Shown piece by piece: positions 3-31,814 of a DNA stretch of 41,686 bases. The position numbers were made by a program, and so were the translations under genes. Numbering within the stretch: position 1 is the first letter of the stretch; the number at the start of each line of letters is the position of its first letter. Below the pieces are notes generated by a model, which saw nothing but the letters and a program-made list of their open reading frames with translations, had not been told where the DNA came from and ran no database searches. Source of the DNA: a virus; IMG/VR virus record IMGVR_UViG_3300017917_003277, positions 1 to 41,686 of that record. The stretch is one strand, 5' to 3'.

Positions 3-27
3 AAAAAAACCCACTTTATGAGTGGGT
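3..27 (-). terminator. Intrinsic terminator of the GNAT-like gene
   Basis: Read leftward, ACCCACT and AGTGGGT form a 7-bp stem followed by seven T. The gene's stop codon lies at the base of the stem. Confidence 0.85.
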
Positions 28-641
28 TACCATTTTACCATTAATAATGAATTTCGTTTAGGTTTAACAAATCCACATTTTTTATATGAATTAATTACCT
101 TTCTCATTGGACCACTAATTGGAGGTAGTAATTTTAATTGTTCTTCGTTATCTCTTGTTTCTTGATATTGAAGGGGGAACGGAATTAAAATCATAGGTAT
201 GTGATACGTTTTATCTAAAGTATCAATTAATTTTCTAACAATACCTTGTCCTCTATATTCTTCTTTAATTTTTATTTTTTCAACAATTAAAAATCTATTT
301 TCATGCACTTCAGGCATCAAATCATAATATTCATCTTTTACATTCATATTATCATCAAATAATTCGTCACTATACGTTGCGGTATTAATACTATGATTAT
401 CCAAAGTTTCATATATCATATTTTCCGACCCCCATAATAATTTTAATTTAAATTCACCTATGATAATATCTCCATTGTCTTTATCATTACTAAAATTGTA
501 CATTTTTATTTGACCATCAATGAATTGCATAAACTCAATGTCATTGGCATTAAAATCATCTACATGCTCTCTTGGGTCTATTGAAGTAAAACTACTTGTG
601 TGAATTGTTACTAAACTTAAATCAATATGTTTTTTTCTCAT
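27..641 (-). CDS. GNAT-like N-acetyltransferase
   Basis: A 204-residue protein. The segment from about residue 118 to 140 (LIVEKIKIKEEYRGQGIVRK) fits GNAT motif A, the acetyl-CoA pyrophosphate loop (R/Q-x-x-G-x-G/A, here RGQGI). A later YKKCGF resembles the motif B segment often written Y.k.GF. Members transfer an acetyl group from acetyl-CoA to an amine; the substrate cannot be read from sequence. The N-terminal ~100 residues are acidic and unfamiliar. It is a single-gene leftward unit with its own host-type promoter (662-692) and terminator (3-27), and a TTACTGGG cluster lies about 100 bp upstream, as for the next two units. The promoter class suggests early expression. The fold is fairly clear; the role is unknown. 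Confidence 0.6.
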   Translation of the reverse strand: MRKKHIDLSLVTIHTSSFTSIDPREHVDDFNANDIEFMQFIDGQIKMYNFSNDKDNGDIIIGEFKLKLLWGSENMIYETLDNHSINTATYSDELFDDNMNVKDEYYDLMPEVHENRFLIVEKIKIKEEYRGQGIVRKLIDTLDKTYHIPMILIPFPLQYQETRDNEEQLKLLPPISGPMRKVINSYKKCGFVKPKRNSLLMVKW

Positions 642-661
642 TATTACATTATTTTATAATT

Positions 662-692
662 CAAATATACAACTATTTTTATTATACACAAA
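662..692 (-). promoter_or_regulatory. Bacteroidota-type promoter
   Basis: On the minus strand TTTG (689-692), a 19-bp spacer and TATATTTG (662-669) match the Bacteroidota -33/-7 consensus TTTG-N19/20-TAnnTTTG. It points to the gene starting at 641. Confidence 0.8.
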
Positions 693-736: not shown

Positions 737-826
737 TTACTGGGTTATCTGACAGATCTCATGAACCCGAGTGAAAAGAACTTACTGGGTAATACGTCCC
801 AGTAATAAGATATATTTTGTGGGACC
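737..826. repeat. TTACTGGG site cluster A
   Basis: TTACTGGG occurs at 737-744 and 782-789 and its complement CCCAGTAA at 798-805. The last two form a perfect 8-bp inverted repeat with an 8-bp spacer. A second motif, TGTGGGACC, is at 818-826. The cluster sits between the terminator of one leftward unit and the promoter of the next, about 45 bp upstream of the -33 box. Confidence 0.8.
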
Positions 827-845
827 CTGATGGAAAATCGTTAAA

Positions 846-873
846 CAAAAAAAGGGGAACATTTCTGTTCCCC
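846..873 (-). terminator. Intrinsic terminator
   Basis: Leftward GGGGAAC/GTTCCCC stem (854-860 with 867-873) followed by a run of T. It ends the two-gene unit 1791-897. Confidence 0.85.
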
Positions 874-896
874 AATTCTCACTAACACTACAAACA

Positions 897-1154
897 CTAA
901 TCTTTATAAACGATTTTATTTGTAATGTCCTTTATAATCTCTCGTATTGTATTACCCTTAACTTTGTTTTCAATCATACAATAATAAATGTCGGTAATAA
1001 CTTTGTGGGTATGTTTAAAGTCTTTATACACCTCTCGTCGTTTATCTCCATTCTTAATTGTTATTCTTGTACTTTCCCAAAGAGGAGTGTTATTAACATA
1101 AATTGATATGATAAAGTTTTCGTCCGAGTAATACGACCTTCTAAATCTTTCCAT
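897..1154 (-). CDS. Hypothetical protein, 85 aa
   Basis: Not recognised. A basic, Lys/Arg/Tyr-rich protein with several short predicted beta stretches (FIISIYVNNTPLW) and no Cys pair, signal peptide or membrane segment. Its start lies one base after the stop of the upstream AT-hook gene, so the two are almost certainly co-transcribed and translationally coupled from the promoter at 1814-1845. The terminator at 846-873 follows directly. The pairing suggests it works with the AT-hook protein, perhaps on DNA, but nothing in the sequence proves that. Confidence 0.65.
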   Translation of the reverse strand: MERFRRSYYSDENFIISIYVNNTPLWESTRITIKNGDKRREVYKDFKHTHKVITDIYYCMIENKVKGNTIREIIKDITNKIVYKD

Positions 1155-1155
1155 A

Positions 1156-1791
1156 TTATTTAGTTATGATACCCAACTTATGTAGGTCGTTGTAATTAAA
1201 TGTGTCATTCAACTTCTTACCGAATATGTTTTCATAAATGATTTCCATATTGGACTTATTTAACTTCGGTTTCTTAATTCCGTACTTCTCACATAGTTTA
1301 ACAAAGTTTCGTGTATCACATACAATCTCAACATTTCTTTGTTCCTCACGATTGAACCAATGATTATTCCATTTAGTACCTACACCACTTACACCAATAG
1401 TAAAATACTTAAACCCACCACAATCCCAATAATAATGTTTTTCACTACCTCCGTCAAACACTTTAGTAATTAAAACAAAGATGTTTTCATCATTCCAATG
1501 TTTTTTAACAACGATTTGACCTTCAACGAATTTTTTAGTGTCTTTCTTAACAATCTTTTTAGTTAATCTCTCTACTTCTTCCTCATAGATTCTTCTCCTT
1601 GTCATATAGTTATCATACATTCTATCTTTGATTTTATCCACCCTACTATTAAAAGAGGTTTCACTTTGATAGTAATTGTTTTCTAACTCTTTGATTTTTT
1701 CTTTTGTCATTAAGATTTCATTTTCATAATTTCTTAATGTGGTCGTTTCGTTTTTACGAGGTCTACCAACCTTTCTTTTTAATGTTTCCAT
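1156..1791 (-). CDS. AT-hook and coiled-coil protein
   Basis: A 211-residue protein. Residues 5-14 (KRKVGRPRKN) contain a textbook AT-hook core, G-R-P flanked by basic residues, which binds the minor groove of AT-rich DNA. Residues ~20-85 are heptad-like and charged (KEKIKELENNYYQ; RRRIYEEEVERLTKKI), consistent with a coiled coil. The C-terminal ~120 residues are Trp/Tyr-rich (WNDENIFVLITKVFDGG; WNNHWFNREEQ) and look globular but are not recognised. It is the first gene of a host-promoter unit with cluster B upstream. A DNA-binding or regulatory role early in infection is an inference from the AT-hook and promoter class. Confidence 0.65.
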   Translation of the reverse strand: METLKRKVGRPRKNETTTLRNYENEILMTKEKIKELENNYYQSETSFNSRVDKIKDRMYDNYMTRRRIYEEEVERLTKKIVKKDTKKFVEGQIVVKKHWNDENIFVLITKVFDGGSEKHYYWDCGGFKYFTIGVSGVGTKWNNHWFNREEQRNVEIVCDTRNFVKLCEKYGIKKPKLNKSNMEIIYENIFGKKLNDTFNYNDLHKLGIITK

Positions 1792-1813
1792 TTGTTTATG
1801 TGTTTAGTGTCCA

Positions 1814-1845
1814 CAAATATAACACTAATTCTATTATATAACAAA
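1814..1845 (-). promoter_or_regulatory. Bacteroidota-type promoter
   Basis: Minus-strand TTTG (1842-1845), 20-bp spacer, TATATTTG (1814-1821). It drives the AT-hook gene starting at 1791. Confidence 0.8.
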
Positions 1846-1900
1846 TAAAAATGTTAAAACTTTCCAAAATTTATCTAACGGTTCCGACGGGAACGGTATA

Positions 1901-2084
1901 TTACTGGGTTATTCGTTCATGGGAAATTCCGAAGAAGGTGAGAACGATTTTACTGGGACGTATTACCCAGTAATTCTTTTCCGTCCAAGAAGGTCCCACA
2001 GTTGGTCATCGGCCAAGAATATCCCAGTAATGTAATACCATGATCATGGTAAATTTTCTTCAGACTCGGCAAATATCCCAGTAA
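1901..2084. repeat. TTACTGGG site cluster B
   Basis: Fills the 391-base gene-free stretch 1792-2182. TTACTGGG is at 1901-1908 and 1950-1957; CCCAGTAA is at 1966-1973, 2023-2030 and 2077-2084. The segment 1950-1973 is the exact reverse complement of 782-805 in cluster A, including its 8-bp spacer. GGTCCCACA, the complement of the TGTGGGACC motif of cluster A, is at 1992-2000. No credible ORF is present here. Confidence 0.85.
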
Positions 2085-2122
2085 TAAAACATACCTGTCC
2101 ACAGTGTGACGGGACTTCAGTC

Positions 2123-2157
2123 AAACAAAAATCCCCCGAACTAAAAGTCCGAGGGAT
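2123..2157 (-). terminator. Intrinsic terminator
   Basis: Leftward, an ~11-bp stem formed by 2147-2157 and 2131-2141 (with G-T pairs) is followed by T-rich sequence. It ends the single-gene unit 2521-2183. Confidence 0.75.
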
Positions 2158-2182
2158 TCGTTAATAAATGAAAGAGTCAAAA

Positions 2183-2521
2183 CTAAGTTTCAATTAAACC
2201 ATCTATAACACCAACCAATTCATCAAACATAATATCGTGGTCAATCGTTTGTTCAACAACCAACATACTATTCAACAATCGTACTTCATAATAATCTAAT
2301 CCGTTGAGGGTAATCATTACAAAGTGTTTCCACTTCATCCCTTTCACTTTTAACAAAAGACCTTTAACATATCCGTCTTCCGTTAATCCGATTCTAATAA
2401 CTTTTTCTACACCCCAACACATATAAGGTAAACCTCCTTGTGTCTTGGTTAATACATACATTGTTTCATCAGGGTTAAATTCTCTAACTCCTAACTTCAT
2501 TAGTGTTTGTTCAGTAGTCAT
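2183..2521 (-). CDS. Hypothetical protein, 112 aa
   Basis: Not recognised. It has mixed alpha/beta character with hydrophobic beta-like stretches (MYVLTKTQGGLPYMCWGVEKVIRIG; VKGLLLKVKGMKWKHFVMI) that could form a small barrel, and an acidic C-terminal helix (DHDIMFDELVGVIDGLIE). There is no signal peptide and no metal-binding cluster. It is a stand-alone leftward unit with host-type promoter (2545-2576), terminator (2123-2157) and site cluster C upstream, the same architecture as the two units to its left. That shared architecture suggests co-regulation early in infection. Confidence 0.65.
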   Translation of the reverse strand: MTTEQTLMKLGVREFNPDETMYVLTKTQGGLPYMCWGVEKVIRIGLTEDGYVKGLLLKVKGMKWKHFVMITLNGLDYYEVRLLNSMLVVEQTIDHDIMFDELVGVIDGLIET

Positions 2522-2544
2522 ATCATTTTGTTTTTAGTGATATA

Positions 2545-2576
2545 CAAATATAATACTATTACCAGTATATTCCAAA
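2545..2576 (-). promoter_or_regulatory. Bacteroidota-type promoter
   Basis: Minus-strand TTTG (2573-2576), 20-bp spacer, TATATTTG (2545-2552). It drives the gene starting at 2521. Confidence 0.8.
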
Positions 2577-2622
2577 CTTTTTTTGTTAAATTTTTGTGAA
2601 GGTGAACCCAACCTGTACGATG

Positions 2623-2862
2623 TTACTGGGACACCAACCCAGGAATGTTTTGGGGATGATCCCTGGTTTTTTCTCTCGACTGGAATTAACCCAGGAAACT
2701 TTTCCTGTACGATCATCCGGAATCAGGTTTCCTTCCAACAACCCAGTAATTATTCCCTGATGATCAGGAGAAAAAATCTGTGAAGATATTCTTGTCCCAC
2801 TAAATGTCAATGTTCGATAATGAATGTGGGACCTCAAGGTTCACGGGGGGTATGTTACTGGG
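2623..2862. repeat. TTACTGGG site cluster C
   Basis: TTACTGGG is at 2623-2630 and 2855-2862 and CCCAGTAA at 2742-2749; TGTGGGACC is at 2825-2833. This is part of the 584-base gene-free stretch 2522-3105. Short ORFs here overlap each other on both strands and look like chance. Confidence 0.75.
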
Positions 2863-2867
2863 ATAGC

Positions 2868-2955
2868 TCCCTATGGGTATAGGTGGGGGGTCCCCCCTCC
2901 CCGTATCCCCCCTTATATAAGGGTTTTTAGGGGGGTCTAAACAGGGGGTCAATGC
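2868..2955. other. G/C-homopolymer block
   Basis: An abrupt G- and C-run block in an AT-rich genome. It contains a 13-bp perfect palindrome of six G, T, six C (2885-2897), then further runs of C and later G5-G6. It could form a strong cruciform or a G-quadruplex. It separates site cluster C from AT-rich repeats. Confidence 0.7.
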
Positions 2956-2962
2956 CGTGAGC

Positions 2963-3095
2963 AAAATTTTTCCGGAAAAAATCTGGAAAAACCAAAAAGT
3001 TCAATAAATTGAAAAAAAAAATTTTTCAGAAAAAAACCTAAAAAGTTAAAAAACGTTTTAAAACACAAAAAAAAATTTTTCCAGAAAAATCGGAA
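2963..3095. repeat. AT-rich ~55-bp tandem-like repeats
   Basis: Three degenerate copies of an A-tract / T5 / C(C)(A/G)GAAAAA unit. The T5 runs begin at 2967, 3022 and 3076, so the spacing is 55 and 54 bp. The second element of the copies (CCAAAAAGTTCAA versus CCTAAAAAGTTAA) is also shared. Together with the G/C block this resembles origin or curved-DNA architecture. Confidence 0.6.
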
Positions 3096-3105
3096 ATATG
3101 AATAA

Positions 3106-3954
3106 CTATTTGTTAATCATATTTTTATAACATAGTTTTAGTTCATTTATAAATTTCTCGGAATCTATATTATTTTTTGCTTGGTTAATAAACCACGTGA
3201 CAATCACGGTATTTTCTATAGTATAACCAATGTTACTATCTATTCTATCCAAAGATAAAGAATGTAGGTCCTTTGTTTTAAAAGTAACTTCAACATTACT
3301 AAAGTAACATCTACCATTTTGTTCTTTTAATTTATTTTGAATTACTTCATCTGTAAGTTCAAATTCAATATTTTTGATTTTAGCTCTATGTTTTGCCGCC
3401 TGAACTCTAATATGAATAATATTTTTCTCATTCACCCATTCTTTATTTGAACAATTATATAATTCACCGTTTTGATATTTTACCCTTAACTTATTTAATG
3501 TACATCTTTTACATATACCTTTAATATTCAAATAAAAATTAGTTACGTCGGTATCACCACATTTCCGGCATAAATGTGGTTTATCGATATGATAAACTTT
3601 AATATTTTCGTTAAAAAATGTGAAATCGTTATTTTTTATTTGATTTTCTATAATTTGTTGGGTTTCATTATATGGTTGACCAATAGGTGGTAGATAACCC
3701 TCTTTTCGTAATTTTGACCTTACATATTGACGTCTAGACTTTAATGTACCTTTAAAATCAATTTTATCTTTAGGGAGTCTCTTTTTTTCGTAGTCGTTCT
3801 TTTTAATATTTTCCCAACAACTAAAATCGTTATTTTTTATTTGATTTAGTATTAATTGTTGTTCTTCTGTACAATGACTACCAACTTTAGGTAAGATACC
3901 TCTTTTTCTTAGTTTATTCCTAATTTTGGTTTTTTTCAATTCAATATTTTTCAT
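3106..3954 (-). CDS. HNH homing-type endonuclease with duplicated N-terminal module
   Basis: A 282-residue protein. Two N-terminal repeats of about 50-60 residues share the pattern R-x-KLRK-x-G-xLP ... Q-x-I-x-NQIKNNDF (residues ~10-45 and ~72-110), probably DNA-binding units. A Cys4 zinc finger follows (CRKCGD ... CKRC, residues ~131-155). The C-terminal part has the HNH-family signature SLDRIDSNIGYTIENTVIV and the helix FINQAKNN, typical of phage HNH nucleases. Such free-standing enzymes cut intronless or cognate DNA and spread their own gene. The gene is isolated on the minus strand beside the AT-rich repeat region. A possible TTTG-N20-TATATTAT promoter lies directly upstream. The nuclease assignment is good; the target is unknown. 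Confidence 0.7.
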   Translation of the reverse strand: MKNIELKKTKIRNKLRKRGILPKVGSHCTEEQQLILNQIKNNDFSCWENIKKNDYEKKRLPKDKIDFKGTLKSRRQYVRSKLRKEGYLPPIGQPYNETQQIIENQIKNNDFTFFNENIKVYHIDKPHLCRKCGDTDVTNFYLNIKGICKRCTLNKLRVKYQNGELYNCSNKEWVNEKNIIHIRVQAAKHRAKIKNIEFELTDEVIQNKLKEQNGRCYFSNVEVTFKTKDLHSLSLDRIDSNIGYTIENTVIVTWFINQAKNNIDSEKFINELKLCYKNMINK

Positions 3955-28759: not shown

Positions 28760-29496
28760 TGGAAAATGTGATGTTCTGCTCATTGGCAGTAGGTGAAAGT
28801 TATTTAAGGAATTTTATTGATTTATGTAATGAAAAAAGAAAAAAGGACAATTCCAAAAGTTTGGCGGTTACAGATAAGGATACCTTTGAATTACTTTCCG
28901 ATTTAATTAAAGAAAACGACCATATCGAATATGTGGTAATAGAAGATAACTACGTAATTAATGAATGGCCGTTAGGATTTAATTTTAATTTAAAACATTT
29001 ACCAATTAAACATTCAATAAAAGAAGGTATCGATTTTATCATTTATATTGATTCTGACTTTAGAATAATCGATGGGTATCACCCAAATAAATTCAAAAAT
29101 TTATTTAACCAAATGGTTTCTAATGATATTGATTATGTTTTTGAAAGACCGTATTTTATTAGTCACGGTAAGCAACATCATCATGACAATTTTTGGAGAC
29201 ACAAAATTGAACCGTACGGTTTAATGGAAACATCCAAATATGATGATTACCATGTATGTAATGAACAATTTTTGGTATTTAGAAATTCAAATAAAATGAC
29301 TATATTTTCAGAAAGATGGGAAGAGTTATATTGGAAATCTATTAAGTTAAATGTATGGACATTTGCTGAGGGTTTGGAAATTGGAATGGCTTCAGCAGAT
29401 GCTGAAATGAAATTCGATTTTAACCTTTTTAGAGGAACACTAAATAACTGTTTTCAATTTAATGATAAAAGTGGAAATTTACACACAAGATTTTAA
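28759..29496 (+). CDS. Putative GT-A glycosyltransferase
   Basis: A 245-residue protein. FIIYIDSDFRIIDGY carries a D-S-D metal motif at the end of a hydrophobic strand, as in GT6- and GT8-type enzymes, and NEQFLVFRNSNKMTIF plus FSERWEELYW fits the acceptor-side region. The HGKQHHHDNFWRHKIEP stretch is unusually His-rich. The stop is followed after one base by the next gene. Donor unknown. Confidence 0.55.
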   Translation: MENVMFCSLAVGESYLRNFIDLCNEKRKKDNSKSLAVTDKDTFELLSDLIKENDHIEYVVIEDNYVINEWPLGFNFNLKHLPIKHSIKEGIDFIIYIDSDFRIIDGYHPNKFKNLFNQMVSNDIDYVFERPYFISHGKQHHHDNFWRHKIEPYGLMETSKYDDYHVCNEQFLVFRNSNKMTIFSERWEELYWKSIKLNVWTFAEGLEIGMASADAEMKFDFNLFRGTLNNCFQFNDKSGNLHTRF

Positions 29497-29497
29497 T

Positions 29498-30136
29498 ATG
29501 GATATAAGTAAAAATATAACAAGGTTTAATAAGTTAGATGAAAGTGATAGTCTATCCGCTTATCTTGGACACACAGCACAGCAATCACATAATGTATATC
29601 AAGTCTTTAGAGATTTTTTAGAAGAAATTAAACCAAGTAGAATTTTAGAAATTGGAACTGCGTTAGGTGGATTCACTCAATTTTTAAATATTACAGTAAA
29701 AGATTTGGGATTAGAATGTCCAATCTTAACTTATGATATCTACAGAAAAGATTGGTACACCGAATTGATAAATAATGGTATTGATGTTAGAGTTGAGGAT
29801 GTGTTTCTTAATTCATATTCCGATGTTAAACAAGAAGTTAAAGATTATATAAAACAAGATGGAATTACATTAGTATTATGTGATGGTGGATATAAAATAG
29901 GTGAATTTAGATTACTATCTGAGTTAATAAAAAATGGGGATTATATTATGGCTCATGATTATTGTGAAAATAGTGAAAAATTCGAACGTGACATAAATAA
30001 AAAAATATGGAATTGGCACGAAATATCTGATTCGGATATTAAAGATTCATGTGAAAAAAATAATCTAAAACCATACAATAAAGAAAAATTTGATTCGGTT
30101 GTTTGGGTGTGTAAAATAAAAGAAAATGAACAATAA
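29498..30136 (+). CDS. Class I SAM methyltransferase (CmcI-like)
   Basis: The start at 29498 is chosen because it follows the preceding stop by one base, matching operon spacing; an upstream ATG at 29462 would add 12 residues. RILEIGTALGGFTQFLNI is SAM motif I (E-x-G-x-x-x-G-G). LTYDIYRKDW is the acidic motif II equivalent, and LVLCDGGYKIGEFRLLSEL plus GDYIMAHDYCENSEKF fits the CmcI/Methyltransf_24-like group. In a sugar cluster it most likely methylates a glycan hydroxyl, but small molecules are possible. Overlaps the next gene by 11 bases. Confidence 0.7.
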   Translation: MDISKNITRFNKLDESDSLSAYLGHTAQQSHNVYQVFRDFLEEIKPSRILEIGTALGGFTQFLNITVKDLGLECPILTYDIYRKDWYTELINNGIDVRVEDVFLNSYSDVKQEVKDYIKQDGITLVLCDGGYKIGEFRLLSELIKNGDYIMAHDYCENSEKFERDINKKIWNWHEISDSDIKDSCEKNNLKPYNKEKFDSVVWVCKIKENEQ

Positions 30137-31814
30137 TGTAACAATAGTTACTGGTTTATGGGATTTAGGTAGAGGTGAATTAGGTGGATGGGCAAAAAGA
30201 GATTTTTCATATTATAAAGAAAGATTTTTTGAAATGCTTAAATCAGATGTGAATATGGTTATATGGATTCCATCTGAATTAGAAAAAGAAGTAAGAGAAA
30301 TACGTAAGCCTGAAAACACAAAAATACATATAAAAGAAGTTGAGGACTTTAAAACTTGGTTTCCGTTTTTTGATAAATTACAAGAAATTAGAACAAATCC
30401 AAATTGGTATAATTTTGCAGGGTGGTTAGCAGAATCTCCACAAGCGGCATTAGAGTTTTATAACCCAATGATGATGTGTAAAATGTTCATGTTAAATGAC
30501 AGTGCAATTTTTGACACATTTAATACCGATTATTTCTTTTGGATTGATGGGGGTTTAACTAATACTGTTAATAAAGGTTATTTTTTACATGATAATGTCT
30601 TAGACAATTTAGATTATTATTGTAATGTTAATGATGATAAGTTTATTCATTTAAGTTATCCATATGAAGGTAATGATGAAATCCATGGTTTTGAGAGGAA
30701 GAAAATGGCGGAATATTGTAATACTGATTTTGTTAGATATGTTTCAAGAGGTGGGTTTTTTGGGGGATTAAAATCAAAGGTAAATCAAATGAATAATTTG
30801 TATTATAGTGTGTTACATAGCACCATTAATGCGGGTTATATGGGGGCAGATGAATGTTTATTTACAATCTTGTGTCATACACATCCAGATATGATACATA
30901 GATTTGAATTAGAAGGTAATGGACTTTGTTGGCCGTTTTTTGAAGAATTAAAGAATATAAAAAAAACTAAACCTTTAAAATCTAATGGTCAAAAACCAAT
31001 GATTAATATAAAGACTAGTCTTTATGTATTAACATATAATTCACCAAAACAATTTGAAACATTAATTAAATCTTTTGAGGAAGTTGAACCTAATTTTTTA
31101 TCAAAGACACAAAAATTCCTTTTAAATAATTCAACAGATAGAACTACCGATTCTGAATATTCTAAACTTTGTGAAACATATGGGTTTGAAGAAATAAAAA
31201 AAGATAACATTGGTATTTGTGGGGGCAGACAATTTATTGCAGAACATTTCGGTGAAAGTGATTCAGATTATTACATATTTTTTGAAGATGATATGTTCTT
31301 ACACCAAAACACTAAAGATATCTGTCCTTCTGGTTTTTTAAGATATAAGGATAACTTATATGAAAAAACATTAAAAATAATACATGAAAATAATTACGAT
31401 TTCTTAAAACTTTCATTTAGTGAATTTTATGGAAATAATTCAGTTCAATGGGCATGGTACAACGTATCACAAGATGTAAGAAATAAATTTTTTCCAAACA
31501 AAAGAAGATTACCCGTATCAGGACATGATCCAAATGCACCAAAAACACAATTTAAAAATATAAGAATTAGTGATGATATTACATACATCGATGGACAAGT
31601 ACATTATTGCAATTGGCCTATATGGATGTCAAAAGAAGGTAATCAAAAAATATTTTTAGATACGGTATGGGCACATCCTTTTGAGCAAACTTGGATGAGT
31701 CATGTTTTTCAAAAACAAATGGAAGATAAAATAAATGCTGCAGTTTTATTATTATCACCAATAAGACACAATAGATTTGATTTTTATCCTGGTGACCAAA
31801 GAAGAGAAAATTAA
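30126..31814 (+). CDS. HtrL/YibB-like domain fused to GT2-like glycosyltransferase
   Basis: A 562-residue protein with two halves. Residues ~1-280 match the HtrL_YibB family (TIVTGLWDLGRGELGGWAKR; NPMMMCKMFMLNDSAIFDTF; YFFWIDGGLTNTVN; FFGGLKSKVNQM), a putative GT-A fold found in LPS loci. Residues ~290-562 are a second GT-A domain (SLYVLTYNSPKQFETLIKSF; LNNSTDRTTDS; IGICGGRQFIAEHF; YIFFEDDMFLHQ with the ED-D metal motif). Bifunctional fusions of this kind suggest two consecutive sugar additions. Its end overlaps the following ATG. Confidence 0.75.
   Translation: MNNNVTIVTGLWDLGRGELGGWAKRDFSYYKERFFEMLKSDVNMVIWIPSELEKEVREIRKPENTKIHIKEVEDFKTWFPFFDKLQEIRTNPNWYNFAGWLAESPQAALEFYNPMMMCKMFMLNDSAIFDTFNTDYFFWIDGGLTNTVNKGYFLHDNVLDNLDYYCNVNDDKFIHLSYPYEGNDEIHGFERKKMAEYCNTDFVRYVSRGGFFGGLKSKVNQMNNLYYSVLHSTINAGYMGADECLFTILCHTHPDMIHRFELEGNGLCWPFFEELKNIKKTKPLKSNGQKPMINIKTSLYVLTYNSPKQFETLIKSFEEVEPNFLSKTQKFLLNNSTDRTTDSEYSKLCETYGFEEIKKDNIGICGGRQFIAEHFGESDSDYYIFFEDDMFLHQNTKDICPSGFLRYKDNLYEKTLKIIHENNYDFLKLSFSEFYGNNSVQWAWYNVSQDVRNKFFPNKRRLPVSGHDPNAPKTQFKNIRISDDITYIDGQVHYCNWPIWMSKEGNQKIFLDTVWAHPFEQTWMSHVFQKQMEDKINAAVLLLSPIRHNRFDFYPGDQRREN

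Follow-up and report, generated by a model that had tools for sequence, protein, structure and literature searches.

Cluster A mycobacteriophages (L5, Bxb1, the TipsytheTRex repressor) carry stoperators, 20-30 short asymmetric sites that are oriented along transcription and whose specificity varies between subclusters (PMC9283540, PMC6550527). In Bacillus phage SPbeta a repeated element, SPBRE, stands before several promoters and binds the master repressor MrpR (PMC10516654), and in Cluster K mycobacteriophages the SAS/ESAS elements combine a short asymmetric repeat with inverted repeats, with a consensus that differs by subcluster (PMC3203893). Cluster O phages (Corndog) have 17-bp dyad repeats that number more than 30 and crowd in one part of the genome (PMC4351075), and the regulator p4 of phage phi29 has several inverted-repeat sites near early promoters and serves the early-late switch (PMC3100819).

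The arrays of the 8-mer TTACTGGG that we describe here resemble the Cluster A sites in being many (61-64 per genome) and asymmetric, and their copies inside genes obey the same orientation rule. Unlike Cluster A sites, they are gathered in one island, form inverted pairs before each promoter and keep a helical register with it. The host type here is Bacteroidota, and whereas Cluster A stoperator phages are temperate, the phages here are large and probably lytic: a search for an integrase (PF00589) gave no match in five contigs, which may be fragments and in which a very divergent one could escape. MrpR has a tyrosine-recombinase fold, for which PF00589 likewise gave no match here. It binds about ten promoter regions in a temperate prophage, whereas our phages have several copies per promoter. 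SAS elements lie at translation starts, the present sites upstream of the promoter; Corndog repeats are symmetric, mostly independent of promoters and genome-wide, the present sites asymmetric, tied to promoters and kept in an island; and p4 is a defined protein with four sites in one region, whereas here there are tens of sites, spread over about 15 promoters. We claim membership in none of these systems. PMC9723584 describes large Bacteroidota phages reaching 331 kb, and a search of its text turned up neither promoters nor motifs; the papers that we searched gave no description of these arrays and nothing on gene timing in large uncultured Bacteroidota phages.

The window, by which we mean the whole 41,686-bp stretch analysed, is one IMG/VR record whose left end is a contig end. 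It holds 11 exact copies of TTACTGGG, all within 737-2862, against about one expected by chance (mean 0.97 and maximum 3 in the shuffled window), and its one-mismatch variants are at background (30 vs 27 expected over the whole window). An earlier note on this DNA had reported the copies as confined to three gene-free regions at particular spacings, and our recount and distances bear this out: in the regions 642-896, 1792-2182 and 2522-3105, in that order, the nearest copy lies 96, 110 and 102 bp from the start codon and 44, 55 and 46 bp upstream of the -33 TTTG. It had also seen TGTGGGACC once in each region, which is correct (3 in the window, 0.2 expected); as a general element, however, we rejected TGTGGGACC for want of conservation, since the islands of two relatives described below, G003 and G001, hold one copy and none. 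The features of the three units are collected in Table 1. The third region additionally contains one-mismatch variants, and a CCCAGGAA variant is present too in the equivalent array of G003. The distance between the site at 1901..1908 and its -7 box is identical in three relatives (G001, G002 and G003).

Table 1. Sites, genes, promoters and terminators of the array units, in window coordinates.
Feature	Position	Strand	Remarks
GNAT-like acetyltransferase gene, unit 1	27..641	-	weak match, E=1e-4
Bacteroidota-type promoter TTTG-N-TATATTTG, GNAT-like gene	662..692	-	consensus PMC6847099
TTACTGGG site, promoter-proximal, GNAT-like gene (27-641)	737..744	+	opposite to transcription; 67 bp to -7 box
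24-bp inverted pair TTACTGGG-TAATACGT-CCCAGTAA	782..805	.	companion GTAATAC inside, 789-795
Intrinsic-terminator-like hairpin and T run, end of upstream unit	846..873	-	array beyond; fold -14.3 kcal/mol
Small gene, unit 2	897..1154	-	ORF without assigned function
Companion GTATTAC within gene 897-1154	1128..1134	-	coding strand; conserved G003 vs G001
211-aa gene, unit 2	1156..1791	-	AT-hook-like KRKVGRPRK start; relatives 85% identical
Bacteroidota-type promoter, 211-aa/85-aa gene pair	1814..1845	-	consensus match
TTACTGGG site, promoter-proximal, 1156-1791/897-1154 pair	1901..1908	+	79 bp to -7 box
24-bp inverted pair TTACTGGG-ACGTATTA-CCCAGTAA	1950..1973	.	reverse complement of 782-805; GTATTAC at 1960-1966
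TTACTGGG site along transcription	2023..2030	-	then GTAATAC at 2032-2038
TTACTGGG site along transcription	2077..2084	-	exact copy
Intrinsic-terminator-like hairpin and T run, end of 112-aa gene	2126..2158	-	fold -18.1 kcal/mol
112-aa gene, unit 3	2183..2521	-	ORF without assigned function
Bacteroidota-type promoter, 112-aa gene	2545..2576	-	consensus match
TTACTGGG site, promoter-proximal, 112-aa gene	2623..2630	+	70 bp to -7 box
TTCCTGGG variant	2638..2645	-	one-mismatch scan
TTCCTGGG variant	2690..2697	-	one-mismatch scan
TTACTGGG site	2742..2749	-	exact copy
TTAGTGGG variant	2796..2803	-	one-mismatch scan
TTACTGGG site, outer edge of island	2855..2862	+	exact copy

Together with its gene, a unit runs from the previous gene through a hairpin and T run, the TTACTGGG sites and inverted pairs (separated by spacers of varying length) and an A-rich stretch to the promoter, TTTG-N-TANNTTTG, and the start codon. 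The promoters follow the Bacteroidota consensus TTTG / TANNTTTG, whose -7 box lies at -12 to -5 (PMC6847099); a 19.6-kb stretch of G003 has 16 such sigma-ABfr-type promoters on its coding strand, against 0.6 expected for both strands. From the promoter type alone we infer that the host belongs to the Bacteroidota. A terminator precedes 12 of the 13 G003 arrays checked, so that DNA rather than RNA is the likely target there. Adjoining the last site, window 2865-2950 is a stretch rich in C/G runs (GGGGGGTCCCCCCTCCCC ... CCCCCC), with a similar one in G003 near 79.4 kb, and at the island edge (window 3106-3954) lies an HNH/endonuclease VII-like gene (phrog_3322, E=1e-20), possibly a homing-type insertion.

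With the gene at 1156-1791 we recovered five related contigs, and with the array pattern four more. DNA identity separates a lineage A (G001=G011, G012, G002=G004=G013), a lineage B (G003=G005=G014) and a lineage C, the window, which is 82-84% identical to A and B. Lineages A and B have their sites throughout an island of 18-19 kb, composed of small leftward genes on one strand. In these possibly incomplete contigs the island contains all 61 copies of TTACTGGG in G001 and 63 of the 64 in G003 (131 kb), and G011 has a single further copy across the 165 kb outside it. With at most one copy outside, the word is not scattered genome-wide, the outcome which the earlier note had named as telling against its reading. 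Because the islands of A and B are full of sites over about 18 kb, the window shows only the last three units, at a cut edge. The proposal of joint control over three left-end units is therefore supported as regards several promoters being governed together, but not as regards their number, the relatives having about 15 units, nor as regards the left end, which is merely where the contig was cut inside the island.

In the relatives the extended site reads WWNWTTACTGGGDTRT, its 8-bp core being asymmetric, and among one-mismatch variants only ATACTGGG is enriched, in G003 only. Gene size, strand and promoter type suggest that the island genes are of an early type. We rejected an origin of the arrays from host genomes: the three-site pattern, searched in 84,980 genomes, occurred mainly in Calothrix-type cyanobacteria and in Gracilibacillus, with four single matches besides, one of them an Alistipes MAG. 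Among isolated phages the window region had no DNA match and the two island proteins tried had no protein match; matches were limited to the widespread DUF932 family, with 25-29% identity among the best ones listed. A sigma-70-family protein is also encoded in G011, at 29452-30219 (L096); it matches phrog_351 (E=2.6e-52) and may be a late sigma factor of these phages.

Homologues of two island proteins, of DUF932 and GP88 types, led to other large phages (contigs of 250-310 kb) in which other words, TTACCRGG, TGNTTGGC and TTGTCTAG, repeat the layout. Lineage-specific words were seen in five further contigs, with patterns and cut-offs that were picked after seeing the sequences, and the whole contigs (251-310 kb) have one main word cluster each. 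TGNTTGGC-type words occur in G015, G019 and the 82-kb G018, the word of G017 is AACTAGAC, and G016, whose island reaches the contig end, has 35 of its 39 copies of TTACCGGG at 254-269 kb and additionally TTACCAGG. Shared core proteins show that the phages of the group are related. The same layout with a word that differs by lineage points, as far as sequences can tell, to a code for early-gene control that changes fast. In L114 a repeated word, TTGTAAAC, overlaps the promoter core, in the spacer just after the -33 box; it is repeated in L113 and L117 as well.

How might such arrays work? The sequences show a binding system at the DNA level, linked to host-type promoters and, as the register suggests, probably to RNA polymerase: the copies keep to the island, are conserved and stand between terminator and host-type promoter, and relative to the -7 box the proximal site always faces the same side of the helix. 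Conservation, island confinement and helical register all back the earlier reading of the copies as binding sites of a regulator that acts on several promoters together. The explanation that we prefer, and to which we would give roughly an even chance, is that the TTACTGGG arrays are dispersed operators through which one sequence-specific regulator acts on host RNA polymerase, probably silencing the early region in the manner of stoperators. At the proximal site a protein would contact host RNA polymerase, and the regulator would govern the early-type island of these large, probably lytic Bacteroidota phages. Less surely, the early region would be silenced by operators at the promoters together with oriented roadblocks within genes, which might serve either to shut off early genes or to exclude related superinfecting phages; exclusion of relatives would account for the changing word as well. 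We favour silencing because of the sense-only in-gene copies, the near-consensus promoters and the changing words, and we rank it ahead of activation with modest confidence. A more tentative proposal, which we hold to be possible though not probable, is that stoperator-like control in these phages amounts to an immunity-like code, with a lineage-specific word set in a constant layout, register and GTATKAC, and possibly directed against superinfecting relatives. If the word does confer an immunity-type specificity, repressor-based superinfection immunity would extend to apparently lytic giant phages. The sequence lets the early-type units be mapped and provides a binding word in each lineage, along with a geometric rule.

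This geometric rule concerns the proximal site. In the TTACTGGG phages it lies 59-60, 66-70, 76-81, 88-90 or 112 bp from the -7 box, with a 10.4-10.5 bp rhythm (P=1.5e-4 vs jitter; V-test P=0.009 once the 76-81 cluster is left out), and in 23 non-redundant units of TGNTTGGC phages it lies 31-33, 41-44 or 50-55 bp away, with a best period of 10.6 (Rayleigh p~3e-7, the period scanned from 8 to 14); near-identical units were removed and the rest taken as independent, but the test rests partly on related cassettes, so that shared ancestry weakens these P-values somewhat, and part of the distance ladder could come from the spacing of A-tracts that separate site and promoter. We looked for a register at the second sites and in the site-site spacings of TTACTGGG and saw none, and other lineage or orientation subsets were without significance, so the register holds for defined classes of site rather than for every copy; in G016 too few units fit the promoter pattern for the test. 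Proximal sites stand opposite to transcription in the TTACTGGG phages and along it in many TGNTTGGC phages, a difference that weighs against the silencer.

Such a register fits a class I activator and a silencer equally. Class I activators, for example CRP, act at helical steps, and an activator of this type, a protein bound upstream, correctly phased on the helix, that recruits host RNA polymerase so as to boost all early promoters, is the rival that survives best, if still an unlikely one. In its favour, the register holds for the proximal site only, at helical steps upstream of the promoter, the site centres lying near -76, -85, -95 and -105 (TTACTGGG) or -48, -58 and -69 (TGNTTGGC), and the position of most array sites, upstream of promoters as with class I activators, also speaks against a silencer. 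However, these promoters are already near consensus and have an A-rich stretch upstream, early promoters would have to be active ahead of any phage protein, barring one that is injected, and activation leaves the oriented in-gene sites without a reason.

These in-gene sites are strongly biased. In genes of at least 80 aa, copies of the words run along transcription 31:1 over five contigs and in mixed frames, some of these contigs being related so that the independent events number fewer than 32; G017 has no site in genes of this size, which tells against the silencer. The in-gene copies thus follow the stoperator orientation rule, and the intergenic arrays, with both orientations, do not. A companion word, GTATKAC, is common to lineages with differing array words. 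As GTATTAC/GTATGAC it is 7-34 times denser inside the island than outside in the six contigs having outside copies; in G018 every copy is inside the island, and the control GTATMAC shows a far smaller difference. In genes it favours the coding strand (99:34, P=1.5e-8), though between A and B its conservation in coding regions, 8/10 vs 56%, is not clearly above background. GTATKAC is found island-wide in G003, G001, G015, G016, G017, G018 and G019 and is scarce elsewhere. The sense bias of both words and the density of GTATKAC in the islands could be explained by an element read either from the RNA or from the non-template strand exposed during elongation, with GTATKAC as partner, be it a nuclease mark, antitermination or the loading of a NusG paralogue. 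Yet the majority of sites are placed past a terminator and occur in either orientation, helical register is a property of the DNA duplex, and an Rfam search matched nothing; we regard an RNA- or elongation-level element as quite improbable.

The conservation of the sites bears on a further possibility. When lineage A is aligned with lineage B, 391 of the 392 bases in intergenic sites agree (99.7%, vs 84.8% of neighbouring bases) and 48 of 55 sites are unchanged (42% for other 8-mers), while in genes the figures are 64/64 bases (background 90.6%) and 8/8 sites (53% expected each); all of these are upper bounds, since alignment may favour identical words. T4-type promoter-early stem-loop cassettes are a model for shuttle modules, and the terminator-array-promoter regions could likewise be mobile or duplicated, the word serving mainly as recombination homology. 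Adjacent units are indeed recognisable duplicates with preserved spacing, and the lineages differ in gene content, but the sites outlast their surroundings, some lie in genes, the register is held at varied distances, and recombination homology would conserve longer blocks, all of which makes shuttling very unlikely. Least probable of all are replication-origin, partition or genome-organising sites (iterons, parS-like): the arrays do contain direct and inverted copies, one of them has DnaA-box-like pairs of TTATCCACA type (G003 73669-73704, G001 52206-52241; L022, L028) and several relatives have a PF08299 DnaA-type protein, but there are about 15 arrays, most of them tied to promoters in fixed register, PF08299 is missing from the array-bearing G016, G018 and G019, and the partition-like protein that had been suggested is unlikely because the sites track promoters rather than a single locus. 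The DnaA-box-like pairs are themselves conserved between lineages and adjoin an array unit without a recognised promoter, a possible origin of replication.

Which protein, then, would read the operators of the preferred silencer? The regulator is likely phage-encoded, although it could belong to the host. A Cluster A repressor joins an HTH to a stoperator domain and halts elongation when bound; no such protein stood out among the family matches that we read. PF08299 (DnaA domain IV) was rejected as the reader on account of the same three contigs, and the 211-aa AT-hook-like protein because its structure model is too poor (pLDDT 47). Small PF08299 phage proteins occur as L217 (G003 44794-44988), L212, L213, L214, L215 and L219. 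A 160-aa island core protein gave a better model (pLDDT 80), with no fold match in PDB/BFVD at E<=0.001. As a lead only, we name a basic protein of about 60 aa with an invariant SYRVR (YRVR) core (G003 61710-61892, minus strand; L022:1710-1892), which occurs in the islands of A and B and in most other array-bearing contigs searched and was not found in G016, where the island meets the contig end. Its sequence bears a weak resemblance to AP2/arm-type DNA-binding domains, without significant matches; being conserved, it may rather read GTATKAC than the changing word. The same may be true of a conserved 65-aa ribbon-helix-helix-like core protein (G011 125709-125906), present in lineages A, B, D, E, F and H, of which one homologue matches RHH_10 at E=0.0076.
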